From assembly GCF_013184525.1 (NCBI RefSeq), contig NZ_JAAOIZ010000005.1, forward strand, positions 434,001-498,000: a stretch of DNA of 64,000 bases, in the 5' to 3' direction. Shown in pieces: positions 22,053 to 27,679 of the stretch. The stretch is from Chryseobacterium sp. LAM-KRS1. Lineage in GTDB: Bacteria; Bacteroidota; Bacteroidia; Flavobacteriales; Weeksellaceae. Under the pieces are notes generated by a model. The model had not been told where the DNA came from. It was given only the letters and a program-made list of their open reading frames with translations, and made no database searches. How positions within the stretch are numbered: position 1 is the first letter of the stretch; each line of letters begins with the position of its first letter. The translations under genes and the position numbers were made by a program.

Positions 22053-22520
22053 ATGAAAATAAATCATCTTACAACTGCAGAAGAAAACTTAATGAAGCTA
22101 TTTTGGAAGCTCGATTCATTCTACCTGAAAGATGTTATGGAGCAGCATCCGGAACCAAAACCACACCAGAATACTGTATCCACTTACCTGAAGATCCTTG
22201 TTGAAAAGGGATATCTTTCTACACAGAAAGAAGGCAGGATTTTTAAATATTCAGTCACCATACCCTATGAACATTATAAAAAGTTTTTATTAAAAGAACT
22301 TTCGCATAACTTCTTTCATGATTCGGGAAAAGAGATCTTACAATTCCTATTGAATGAAAAATTAATATCACAGGATGATTTAAAAGAGTATTTCGATCTT
22401 AAAATTGAAATAAAACCGGTAAAAACCAAAATACCGAAGCTGGAGATTGCCAATGAGATCCTTAATCCCAAAAAGGATAAGAAAAACAGGGATAAAAAGA
22501 AAAAGAAGAAAAAAGATTAG
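22053..22520 (+). CDS. BlaI/MecI/CopY-family transcriptional regulator
   Basis: This 155-aa winged-helix repressor starts at ATG 22053; the open frame runs further upstream but overlaps the PAP2-like gene. The DNA-binding domain is LTTAEENLMKLFWKLDSFYLK to ILVEKGYLSTQKEGRIFKY (about residues 6-70). The dimer region shows LLKELSHNFFHDSGKEILQF. The last ~20 residues are almost all Lys and Asp. BlaI family members normally sit beside a BlaR1/M56 sensor protease; none is visible here, so its signal is unclear. It may regulate the preceding membrane gene or act elsewhere. Confidence 0.85.
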   Translation: MKINHLTTAEENLMKLFWKLDSFYLKDVMEQHPEPKPHQNTVSTYLKILVEKGYLSTQKEGRIFKYSVTIPYEHYKKFLLKELSHNFFHDSGKEILQFLLNEKLISQDDLKEYFDLKIEIKPVKTKIPKLEIANEILNPKKDKKNRDKKKKKKKD

Positions 22521-23581: not shown

Positions 23582-23977
23582 ATGAACTATCACACTAGAA
23601 AATGGGTAAAACCCGAAGATCTGAATCCTAATCATTCACTTTTTGGAGGCAGGTTATTACAATGGATCGATGAAGAAGCTGCTCTCTATGCTATCATTCA
23701 GTTAGAAAACACAAAAGTGGTTACGAAGTTCATTTCGGAAATCAACTTCGTTAGTTCTGCCAAACAGGGAGATATTGTTGAAATCGGGATTGAAGTAACA
23801 GCATTCGGTTCAAGTTCTATTACATTGCGATGCGAGGTACGAAATAAAATGACGCATCAAACTATTATCACGGTAGATAAAATTGTAATGGTCAATTTAG
23901 GTGAAGACGGAAATCCTCTTCCTCATGGCAAAACGCAGGTAGAATTCGTAAAGGACCGATTAAATAACCAGCTATGA
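23582..23977 (+). CDS. Acyl-CoA thioesterase, hotdog fold (YciA-like)
   Basis: This 131-aa single-hotdog thioesterase has the family segment NHSLFGGRLLQWIDEEAALYA, in which the catalytic Asp is in WIDE, followed by VVTKFISEINFVSSAKQGD. It probably hydrolyses acyl-CoA esters. It overlaps the following AraC-type gene (ATGA at 23974-23977), so they share an operon driven by the promoter at 23531. No role in metal handling is apparent. Confidence 0.88.
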   Translation: MNYHTRKWVKPEDLNPNHSLFGGRLLQWIDEEAALYAIIQLENTKVVTKFISEINFVSSAKQGDIVEIGIEVTAFGSSSITLRCEVRNKMTHQTIITVDKIVMVNLGEDGNPLPHGKTQVEFVKDRLNNQL

Positions 23978-24534
23978 AAATTTTCATCAAAAATATGGTT
24001 TGCGGCAGGTGCATTTCTGCCGTTTCTTCTATTTTTAATGATTTTGGGATCGGAATACAATCCATACAACTTGGGGAAGTGGAAACGGAATCAGATATTT
24101 CAGATCATGATATGCGTTCCATTGAAACAGAATTGGAAAAAACAGGTTTTGAAAGAATAAAGGATTCCTCCCATCAACTTGTTGAGAAAATCAAAAATCT
24201 CATTATTACCAAAATCAGCGAACTCGATATCGATGAAGACTTTTTATTATCAGAATTTCTGGCTTCAAAAATACATAAGGATTACAGTTCCCTTTCAAAA
24301 ACCTTTTCCCAAAATGAGAATATTACTTTGGAGCAGTTTTTTATCCTTCAAAAAATAGAGAAGGTAAAGGAGCTTCTTTTGTATAATGAATTTACGTTAA
24401 CGGAAATTGCAGGAAAGCTTGGTTATAAAAGTGTACAGCATTTATCCTCACAATTCAGAAACAGCACAGGATTCACCCCTACTGAGTTTAAAAAACTGAA
24501 AGTCCATAACAGAAAACCGCTTGACAGTTTTTGA
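23974..24534 (+). CDS. AraC-type regulator with N-terminal CxxC metal-binding-like domain
   Basis: This 186-aa protein seems to combine two parts. Residues 1-70 resemble a heavy-metal-associated domain: it starts with MKIFIKNMVCGRCISAV, with Cys10 and Cys13, and has a beta-alpha-beta pattern. Residues ~85-180 are an AraC helix-turn-helix pair (ASKIHKDYSSLSKTF, LTEIAGKLGYKSVQHLSSQF, TGFTPTEFKKL). It lacks the usual cupin sensor. Next downstream on the same strand, 292 bp away, is a copper ATPase gene, so it may sense copper and control that gene. It is translationally coupled to the thioesterase gene. Metal binding and target are inferred. Confidence 0.8.
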   Translation: MKIFIKNMVCGRCISAVSSIFNDFGIGIQSIQLGEVETESDISDHDMRSIETELEKTGFERIKDSSHQLVEKIKNLIITKISELDIDEDFLLSEFLASKIHKDYSSLSKTFSQNENITLEQFFILQKIEKVKELLLYNEFTLTEIAGKLGYKSVQHLSSQFRNSTGFTPTEFKKLKVHNRKPLDSF

Positions 24535-24826
24535 GTGAAGTACCAGAGCGTATGGGATTAGTGAGAGTCTACGTGTTTAAGGTTTTAAGCACATTACAGT
24601 TAAAGATTATAAAAATAGCTTTTAAGTAGATTAGTACTTCAGTACTACAAGATCATAAAATCCCAAATAACTCAATATTACTCCATTATTCAATACCCTA
24701 ATACCCTAACACCCTCCGACTCTCAAACATCCAAATACCCGATTTCCCAAATTCTATAACTATTATCCTTAAATTTATAACATACATTATTTTCCTTTAC
24801 GGAATTTTGTATTATAATTTAAGATC
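24535..24826. other. Intergenic region with CCCTAA-like microrepeats
   Basis: This 292-bp spacer lies before copA. It contains ATACCCTAATACCCTAACA-type short repeats (about 24693-24720) and a small palindrome AGTACT-TC-AGTACT near 24646. No ORF of note. The copA promoter is presumably within the last ~100 bp but is not clear. Confidence 0.55.
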
Positions 24827-27679
24827 ATGGAACAACAATATAAAATACTCGGAATGAGCTGTTCCGGTTGTCAGAAAAAAATCTCTGAAAAGCTAAATTC
24901 AATCGAGGGAATTACAGCAGATATCAGTCTGGAAAATAATCTTGCAACTATTATCTCAGATACTCCAATTAACCTTAATACGCTAAACAAGGCTTTAGCC
25001 GAGATTGGCCATTATCAGCTGGAGGATCAGACGCAGCCGGAAAAAGCTTTCATTAAACCTCAGGATCGTGTTTCTCCATCTTCAGTTTACTATTGTCCTA
25101 TGGAATGCGAGGGAGATAAAGTATACTTCAAACAGGGAGAACGATGCCCGGTTTGTCATATGTACCTTGTTCCTATTGAAGAAAAGCAAGCTAAGGACCC
25201 TAATTACAAACCGGCCTATTCTTCCAAACATTTGCCGGAAAACTTCAAAGACCATATTGGAAAATATTATTGTCCGATGTTTTGTGAAGGAGATAAAATA
25301 TATGATGAAAAAGGCGACTGTCCGGTTTGTCATATGCACCTGGAAGAAATTACACAAGAGCTTGTTAATAATTCATCATCAGAACATACCCATCAACATT
25401 CTCATTCACACACCCACCATCATCATGAAGCTCCTAAAGTTACGGATGATATGGCTGGAAGATACTATTGCCCGATGTATTGCGAAGGAGACAAAACTTA
25501 TGACAGCAATGTAGGGTGTCCTGTCTGTGGAATGGATCTTGTGAAATATCCTGAGAAAAAGACCGCAAAATATACCTGCCCTATGCATCCTGAAATTATA
25601 CGGGACGAGCCTGGAAGCTGTCCCATATGCGGAATGGATCTCATAAGAATGCCTGATACTGGAGGGGAAGAAGATGATGAAACCTATAATATATTAAAAA
25701 GGAAATTCATTATTTCATTGCTATTTACCGTTCCCGTATTTATTCTTTCTATGGGAGGTATGCTGATTAACTTCCCGTTCTCTCATCAGATTCAGGGCTT
25801 TATTGAGCTGGCTTTAACAATTCCTGTGCTTTTCTATTCTGGGTGGTTTTTAATGAAAAGAGGCTGGGTTTCATTTAAAACATGGAATCTGAACATGTTC
25901 AGTCTGATTGCCCTGGGAGTTTCTGCAGCATTTATTTTCAGTATTGTCTCTCTTCTTTTTCCGGATATCATCCCACATGAAATCCGCGGTCACAATCATG
26001 AGATCCCTCTTTATTTTGAGGCGGTCTGTGTTATTCTTACGCTGGTTATCCTGGGGCAACTCATGGAAGCCGCTGCTCATAAAAAAACTGGAAATGCGAT
26101 CAGGGAGCTGATGAATCTTTCACCGGATGAAGCCAACCTGATCGTAAATGGAGAAGAAAAAAGGGTTCTTCTTTCTCAAGTAAAGATCGGTGATTTTTTA
26201 AAGGTAAAGCCCGGAGAAAAGATACCGGTAGACGGAAAAATAACGGAAGGCAACTCTATTGTTGATGAAAGTATGATCACCGGAGAACCGATTCCTGTAG
26301 AAAAAAATATGGATGATAAGGTCTCATCAGGAACAATCAACGGGAATCAGGTTTTTATTATGAAAGCTGAAAAAGTTGGTGATGAAACCCTATTGTCCCA
26401 GATCATCAAAATGGTGAATGAAGCAAGTCGTAGTAAAGCACCTATTCAAAAATTAACCGATAAAGTTTCCAAAATCTTTGTACCGACGGTTATCCTTATT
26501 GCCGCTTTAACATTTGTCGGATGGCAATTCTTCGGGCCCGAAGGGAAAAGAAGTTTGTTTGCTTTCGTCAATGCTGTAGCTGTACTTATTGTAGCCTGTC
26601 CTTGTGCATTAGGTCTTGCTACTCCAATGTCTTTGATGGTTGGAATCGGAAAAGGGGCTAAAAACGGCATCCTGATTAAAAATGCCGAAGCTTTGGAACA
26701 AATGAACAAAGTAAATGTTCTTATTACGGACAAAACAGGAACTCTTACCGAAGGGAAACCATCTGTAGAACACATTGAAACAGTGGATAACGGAAATCAG
26801 GATCAGATTTTAAAATTAGCCTATTCATTGAATCAGAATTCAGAACACCCACTGTCTAACGCAGTCATTAAAAAAGCTAAGGATCAAAAAATCTCTTCCG
26901 CGAAGGTAGAAAAGTTTGAAAACATATCCGGAAAAGGGGTAAAAGGAATCATCGATGGAAAAACGGTGTATGTTGGAAACGAAAATCTCCTGACCTCTCA
27001 TCAGATTGCCATTCCTGATAGTTTAAAACAGAAGGCAATTGAAGTTCAGTCCAAAGCGCATACGATTTCATATATTGCCGAGGATCATAATGTTTTAGGG
27101 TTCATAAGTTTTAGGGATAAAATCAAAGAAAGTTCTAAAAAGGCCGTTGAGCTCTTAATGAAAGAAGGTCTGGATATCGTGATGATGACCGGCGATAATG
27201 AACATACAGCTAAAGCTGTAGCGGATGAGCTGGGTATCATACACTACAAAGCCAATTGTTTACCTGAAGATAAATTAAATGAAGTTAAAAAACTTCAGAA
27301 AGAAGGAAAAATTGTCGCAATGACAGGTGATGGAATCAACGACTCTCCTGCTTTGGCACAATCCGACATCGGAATTGCTATGGGAACAGGGACGGATGTC
27401 GCTATTGAGAGTGCAGAGATTACTTTATTAAAAGGAGATATCATAGGTGTAGCCAAAGCTAAGCTTCTGAGTGAAAAACTATTGAAGAATATTAAGGAAA
27501 ACCTCTTTTTTGCTTTTATCTATAATGTATTAGGAGTTCCTATTGCGGCAGGATTATTGTATCCTTTTTTTGGAGTTCTGTTATCTCCGATGATTGCAGC
27601 CGCAGCTATGAGTTTCAGCTCTTTATCGGTGATTCTTAATTCATTAAGATTAAACGCTGTCGATCTCGACATTAAATAA
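24827..27679 (+). CDS. copA: Copper-type P1B ATPase with HMA domain and four CPxC metal-binding modules
   Basis: This heavy-metal export ATPase has 950 aa; usual CopA is ~750-830. The N-terminal HMA domain has Cys12 and Cys15 (MSCSGC). Four short metal-binding modules follow at about 88-116, 147-174, 213-240 and 249-275, each with YxCPM... and CPVC/CPIC-x-M. A His-rich linker lies at 187-200. The membrane-catalytic core has the CPC site (Cys591, Cys593), phosphorylated Asp635 in DKTGTLTEG, the SEHPLSNA loop and [13 protein letters not shown] plus HMA points to Cu(I); the modules suggest high copper load or a chaperone-type input. An AraC/CxxC gene lies upstream. Cation choice is inferred from motifs. 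Confidence 0.95.

Follow-up and report, generated by a model that had tools for sequence, protein, structure and literature searches.

Activators of the AraC/XylS family, such as AraC, MarA, Rns and GadX, contact DNA through a double helix-turn-helix (HTH) domain that usually accompanies an effector domain, and AraC itself, at araI1-I2, occupies a direct repeat of 21-bp period that overlaps the upstream promoter element. HMA metallochaperones (CopZ, Atx1, ATOX1, GolB) and the N-terminal domains of CopA pumps share a ferredoxin-like fold and an MxCxxC metal-binding motif. Here we describe, in a 64,000-nucleotide stretch of DNA from Chryseobacterium sp. LAM-KRS1 (hereafter the window), a 186-residue protein in which modules of both kinds appear to be joined, an HMA-like domain preceding an AraC-type HTH, and whose gene lies next to copA, the gene for a copper-pumping ATPase. 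In our judgement this one-component regulator very probably senses Cu(I) and activates copper efflux through copA, by way of an HMA-like sensor and a direct-repeat operator, and it is a candidate for the cytosolic copper sensor of many Bacteroidota. The likelihoods given below for alternative explanations are separate ratings and need not sum to one with that of this reading.

A survey of marine bacteria that searched at E 1e-30 with models for CueR, CopY and CsoR attributes to its few Bacteroidota, in the sections used here, only two-component and extracytoplasmic function (ECF) copper systems (PMC10141476). A study of copper in Bizionia argentinensis, in its passages on regulators, reports finding neither a MerR nor a CopY protein with a copper site and considers ArsR candidates instead (PMC11213822), and the part of the Chryseobacterium oranimense genome paper cited here names CusR and a cop operon and makes no mention of an HMA-like/AraC regulator (PMC10710014). 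Because copper sensing in Bacteroidota, as presented in these excerpts, consists of two-component and ECF systems, ArsR candidates and CusR, the HMA-like/AraC family fits a real gap; no description of an HMA-AraC copper regulator was found in the literature searched, which largely excluded subscription journals.

The C-terminal part of the regulator is matched by Pfam HTH_18 over residues 96-174 (E 1.1e-13; 51.7 bits against a cut-off of 33.6) and by HTH_AraC (E 2.1e-10; 40.9 bits against 26.6), and its NCBIfam matches are to AraC-type regulators and CopZ. An AlphaFold2 model based on a 77-sequence alignment, with a mean predicted local distance difference test score (pLDDT) of 90 and a predicted template modelling score (pTM) of 0.77, gives residues 2-62 the order beta-alpha-beta-beta-alpha-beta (strand 2-6, helix 11-23, strands 28-32 and 35-38, helix 44-56, strand 60-62), with the AraC helices starting at residue 65. 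In structural comparisons by VIA-align, limited to Foldseek's top chains, the HTH part superposes on MarA (1bl0; Z 15.1, root-mean-square deviation 2.2, 115 residues) and the N-domain on GolB (Z 8.0, deviation 2.2, 60 residues), Atx1 (Z 7.8), CopZ and HAH1 (both Z 7.5). Residues 8-13 read MVCGRC, with Cys10 and Cys13 in the predicted metal-binding positions, and hhalign aligns the N-domain profile with the HMA domains of neighbouring proteins at a probability of 94.5 (E 7.8e-8), the CxxC pairs in register. Model, motif and profile match thus agree on the hallmark of an HMA domain, a ferredoxin-like fold with MxCxxC on its first loop. The original prediction, made from the sequence alone, had envisaged exactly such a 186-residue protein and had set this fold as its structural test; both are upheld by the reading frame, the Pfam HTH matches, the model and hhalign. 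Across all 77 aligned members K6, N7, M8, V9, C10, R12 and C13 are invariant; 76 of the 77 were fetched by two peptide patterns, and because one of these was IKNMVC, the selection bears least on R12 and C13. From these features the N-domain is predicted to bind a soft metal, namely Cu(I).

The gene that follows the regulator encodes a pump of the Cu(I) type. Its product contains one HMA domain (residues 6-61), as originally proposed, and in addition four HMBD repeats identified by Pfam, besides a DKTGT motif and all the Cu(I)-type signatures of P1B-1 ATPases known from the P1B literature: CPC in transmembrane segment (TM) 6, N-x6-YN-x4-P in TM7 and P-x6-M-x2-SS-x5-N in TM8. The four HMBD repeats and a His-rich linker occupy a single pump N-terminus at 25088-25645. 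In the window genome as a whole Pfam HMA matches (E<=0.001) are few: there are three in all, each in a large open frame of 794-953 residues, and no stand-alone, CopZ-sized HMA match at this threshold.

Linkage to efflux genes extends well beyond this locus. Neighbours within four genes upstream and five downstream of family members were labelled as efflux genes through a seeded sequence search for P1B ATPases, RND pumps, membrane fusion proteins, OEP, HMBD, ArsP-HMA and HMA-MauE proteins; gene calls in the fetched loci are our own open reading frame (ORF) picks, some with starts placed too far upstream. Counts were taken with and without the duplicate pairs L038/L053, L043/L055 and L079/L080, and a divergent CxxC member (L027) was excluded. 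An efflux-labelled gene is nearby in 83 of 97 CxxC loci (80 of 94 without duplicates) and immediately next in 64 of 97 (61 of 94), so that the search recommended with the original prediction, for proteins of the same two parts and their neighbours, finds them to be common in Bacteroidota and mostly beside efflux genes. Outside the orthologous Chryseobacterium group, in 69 non-orthologous loci that include two from Chryseobacterium-group genomes which are not orthologues (L015, L122), the corresponding figures are 56/69 and 39/69. P-type ATPases encoded up to four genes downstream of CxxC members carry all the Cu(I) P1B-1 signatures in 58 of 61 cases (56 of 59 without duplicates), two others having CPH and one being incomplete. 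Among side observations, the pump of one relative (L037) is divided between two ORFs, and in L017 (5564-7624) a Piwi-domain ORF slightly overlaps the start of the HMA-like/AraC ORF, with HMA-MauE and RND genes following.

These neighbourhoods also bear on what is sensed. The regulator might respond to another signal, either a further soft metal (Hg or Zn, for example) or oxidation of the CxxC thiols, the copper link being secondary. HMA domains of the CxxC type can accept several soft metals, some family members adjoin ArsP-HMA permeases or HMA-MauE proteins, and there are the two CPH pumps; yet the MxCxxC motif is that of Cu(I) chaperones and in nearly all nearby pumps the three motifs are all those of the Cu(I) type, and we regard this alternative as improbable.

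Between the regulator and copA lies the sequence ATTCTATAACT-N10-AATTTATAACA (24751-24782), a predicted operator. An unconstrained motif search was discarded, having caught downstream HMA coding sequence, and was replaced by an intergenic, repeat-constrained one. Run without the Chryseobacterium orthologues, on the 69 non-orthologous loci, the latter yielded the half-site ATttTatAAat, and a comparison of spacings in 67 loci peaks at 21 bp, where the log-likelihood is 165; none of eleven other spacings exceeds 119, and four shuffled sets reach 28-40. Sites scoring above 99% of the null occur in 38/69 downstream regions, a count that is somewhat optimistic because the leave-one-out procedure began from a matrix built on all loci and so had seen every one, against 3/69 upstream regions and 2/69 coding controls. 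They are present in 32 of the 39 loci with an efflux-labelled next gene and in 6 of the 30 others, four of these six having the pump as second gene.

Within the orthologous Chryseobacterium group a site above the same threshold precedes the pump in all 26 loci that have one (24 distinct), L056 barely passing and L057, with no pump nearby, falling outside the count; within 200 bp of the regulator stop the figure is 20/27, because some gaps are longer and the 26/26 search was anchored on the pump. A scan of 60 Chryseobacterium-group genomes found exactly one match (up to two mismatches) in 58, against 0/60 for the reversed pattern. Adjacency was examined in 11 fetched relatives among the scanned genomes: in ten, a match immediately follows the regulator and precedes the pump; in the eleventh (G001) the copy of the repeat between the two genes has diverged. 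In the window genome the copA site is the sole exact match, with four more at three mismatches, where the control gives one. At the sequence level, then, the regulator is accompanied by a direct-repeat site near a promoter, as in the AraC/XylS family.

The repeat stands at a fixed distance from a second conserved element. AraC-class activators bind beside RNA polymerase, a geometry that the repeat and promoter here resemble, and the family usually activates transcription. The tetranucleotide TTTG, which had no role in defining the repeat motif and has a background of 0.8% per position, lies 23 or 24 bp past the second half-site in 32 of the 38 non-orthologous sites and exactly 23 bp past it in 26/26 orthologous ones (24 distinct). 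It fits the Bacteroidota -7 element, given as TAnnTTTG in the portion of the source used (PMC7366714), and copA appears to have a promoter of its own. The second, proximal half-site spans the -33 region, as expected for an operator that would serve an AraC-type activator, and TTG at the expected -33 spacing is found in 0/32 promoters (chance about 15% each).

The same sensor and operator could also work in the opposite sense, with the apo-protein on the repeat blocking RNA polymerase at -33 until released by Cu(I). Such an arrangement would suit a repeat that overlaps the core promoter and would parallel CsoR and CopY, which act as repressors. We nevertheless think it unlikely, given the constant 23-24 bp between repeat and -7 element across families, the lack of TTG at -33 in these promoters and the habitual behaviour of AraC proteins; it is mainly the repeat-promoter geometry that leads us to favour activation by the bound regulator over repression.

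A set of paralogues differs in the metal motif. In 13 loci (L019-L026 and L028-L032, two of them, L025 and L030, in the window genome at G000:C2 and G000:C6) the first Cys is replaced and the second kept (IKYMVSLRC, VKFDFNALC and similar), with all 13 falling together on one side of a single branch of the family tree (support 98/93). None has an efflux-labelled gene nearby or as next gene (0/13 for both). Four of the eight SxxC loci (L020, L023, L025, L026) have the 21-bp-period repeat with TTTG at +23, L020 being under the score threshold. As to other neighbours, the gene after L025 is weakly CsbD-like, below the cut-off, and after the NxxC-type L028-L032 comes a conserved gene of some 148 codons (overlapping in L029-L032), whose product in L029 has a sub-threshold response-regulator match. 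Since the paralogues retain the domain without its first Cys, and half of the SxxC ones show the repeat and promoter spacing, the N-domain could be structural or serve dimerisation, with CxxC a relic. This we hold to be very improbable, because Cys13 and R12 are invariant in 77/77 CxxC members and loss of the first Cys coincides with the complete absence of efflux neighbours.

The family is widely distributed. A scan of GTDB genomes confirmed at least 545 related loci, which may include paralogues; among the best 80, three are titled Ignavibacteriae or Ignavibacteria, one is Rhodohalobacter (Balneolota) and the remainder are Bacteroidota. The working set A3 comprised these 80 without L047, L049, L051 and L080, which resemble retained rows, and among at least 38 full-length family places listed, 32 were used and the six weakest (E 5e-27 to 1.7e-25) left out. 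When 296 genomes of the window's phylum were scanned with a codon pattern for KNMVCxRC, 124 gave an exact match, not verified individually, and the reversed-pattern control had no match among the genomes listed. Plasmid records gave 30 matches, all below 60% identity, 15 of them in Hymenobacter; among 15 matches listed, nine are annotated as AraC family, three as helix-turn-helix, one as response regulator and two are unannotated. A scan of viral contigs found no relatives of the regulator. Judged by these sequence scans, the regulator is one of a family present across much of the phylum and no local oddity. We consider it reasonably likely that these proteins make up a copper-sensor family of their own, so far undescribed, in which a metallochaperone-like domain is joined to an AraC activator that works on a distinct direct-repeat operator of 21-bp period, in a fixed promoter geometry, that a large share of the phylum Bacteroidota relies on this family for its main cytosolic Cu(I) sensor, and that the SxxC/NxxC paralogues represent the same switch re-tuned to other inputs.

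Whether copA answers mainly to some other regulator was considered with CsoR, CueR and CopY models, which made up the copper-regulator search of the window genome. CsoR (PF02583) matches neither the regulator nor the window genome, and 3 of 50 genomes of the class have one; CueR (TIGR02044) has no match above the cut-off in the window genome, the best (28.3 bits against 147.4) being at another locus; CopY (TIGR02698) does not match the regulator, and its three matches in the window genome are all below the cut-off. The regulator is accordingly unlike CueR, CopY and CsoR in sequence, which agrees with the distinction drawn in the original prediction. About 1.5 kb upstream of the regulator, at 22053-22520, lies a gene for a repressor of the BlaI/MecI/CopY family, cysteine-free and with a Lys-rich tail, which was rejected as a copper sensor for want of any cysteine. 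Control of copA by this protein or by a CusRS-type two-component system would accord with the position of its gene 2.3 kb upstream of copA, with its CopY-model match (E 3.4e-13) and with the two-component and ECF systems (PMC10141476) and the CusR (PMC10710014) presented in the excerpts cited above. Such control seems highly unlikely, since the BlaI-like protein, besides lacking cysteine, reaches 50 bits where the CopY cut-off is 122, and the conserved site before the pump tracks the HMA-like/AraC gene across families.

Fold, metal motif, neighbourhood and conserved operator together support a direct copper sensor that controls copA, and against this several observations have to be set. The N-domain is too diverged to have a Pfam HMA (PF00403) match at E<=1, let alone one reaching the gathering score, for which reason it is named HMA-like and not a Pfam HMA member; its single-sequence matches are weak (CopZ E 0.066, ATOX1 E ~0.1), and masking residues 8-13 lowers the hhalign probability to 27.9 (E 6e-4), which shows that the profile match depends largely on the CxxC region. 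Nor is the fold by itself accepted as proving an HMA domain: unrelated chains, an ACT domain among them, score just as well (Z 8.0-8.3), in a range that the tool calls common. Among CxxC loci 14/97 have no efflux-labelled neighbour. The operator matrix was trained on the same loci that it scored; 31/69 non-orthologous downstream regions are below threshold, including 7 of the 39 with an efflux-labelled next gene; and sites are not confined to CxxC members, 3/13 paralogue downstream regions passing, which suggests that the DNA-binding mode predates the metal site or is separate from it. The absent -33 motif is weak evidence for activation, because none was identified in Flavobacterium johnsoniae either, according to the part of that study used here (PMC7366714). 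Finally, 172 of the 296 phylum genomes lack the exact codon pattern, including, among the rows listed, the heavily sampled family f24, and the regulator family therefore cannot be the sole copper sensor of the phylum.

If the regulator is nonetheless the Cu(I)-dependent activator proposed here, Cys10 and Cys13 in the HMA-like N-domain would trap excess Cu(I), and possibly Ag(I) or Au(I), and this would alter the domain or its dimerisation. Two AraC-type HTH domains could then bind head to tail on the repeat at 24751-24782, and the bound regulator, its proximal half-site at the -33 position, would recruit sigma-ABfr RNA polymerase to the -7 element at 24802-24809, whereupon copA would be switched on and the pump would remove copper.

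The locus lies on contig C5 of the 4.6-Mb window genome (G000), and the closest named relatives of the regulator are from Chryseobacterium; its features are collected in the table.

Features of the regulator-copA locus, in window coordinates
Feature	Position	Strand	Basis
4HBT (hotdog) thioesterase gene	23582..23977	+	ORF, Pfam, conserved neighbour
HMA-like/AraC regulator, 186 aa	23974..24534	+	ORF, HTH_18/HTH_AraC, AlphaFold2 model, family alignments
N-terminal HMA-like (ferredoxin-like) domain, residues 2-62	23977..24159	+	AlphaFold2 model, structural matches, hhalign
CxxC codons Cys10-Gly-Arg-Cys13, predicted Cu(I) site	24001..24012	+	sequence; 77/77 members
AraC-type double HTH DNA-binding domain, residues 65-175	24166..24498	+	Pfam, AlphaFold2 model, MarA match
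Predicted operator, two 11-bp half-sites (24751-24761, 24772-24782), 21-bp period	24751..24782	+	motif searches
-7 promoter element gaattttg (cf. TAnnTTTG), TTTG 23 bp past operator	24802..24809	+	sequence; consensus in part of PMC7366714
CopA-like P1B-1 Cu(I) ATPase, 950 aa	24827..27679	+	ORF, Pfam, P1B-1 signatures

The thioesterase stop overlaps the regulator start codon (ATGA), and 292 bp separate the regulator stop from the copA start. Among the 25 distinct orthologous Chryseobacterium loci, 24 have the thioesterase directly upstream of the regulator and 24 have the pump within four genes of it, the order thioesterase-regulator-pump being conserved; the thioesterase is probably only co-transcribed with the regulator. 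The original description of a self-contained copper control unit thus holds in that regulator, predicted operator and pump stand together, and has to be qualified in that the regulator start overlaps the thioesterase stop and copA is apparently transcribed from a separate promoter.

The internal copper sensor of Bacteroidota has not been clear so far, and the conserved unit of sensor, operator and pump offers a specific and easily tested answer, with a possible use as a copper biosensor part for these bacteria. If true, it would mean that a metallochaperone-like domain can act as effector domain in an AraC-type regulator. Set beside known systems, the protein is, with high likelihood, a one-component AraC-family metalloregulator with a metallochaperone-like sensor domain and its own predicted operator. 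It resembles AraC/XylS activators in its double HTH and in a predicted operator whose direct repeat has a 21-bp period and overlaps the upstream promoter element, and differs from them in having an HMA-like N-domain of about 64 residues instead of the usual effector domain and a target promoter with the Bacteroidota -7 element. With HMA chaperones and CopA N-domains it shares the order of strands and helices and MxCxxC, and unlike them it carries this domain, too diverged for Pfam HMA, fused to a DNA-binding one. CsoR and CopY are likewise encoded beside Cu(I) ATPases and control efflux, but belong to unrelated families and are repressors, whereas an activator is proposed here. Closest in proposed role is CueR, a MerR-family protein described in the cited part of the marine survey as a one-component, Cu(I)-dependent activator of copA (PMC10141476), from which the regulator differs in DNA-binding family, metal site and operator, the CueR operator being a long -35/-10 spacer and the one predicted here a direct repeat over -33.

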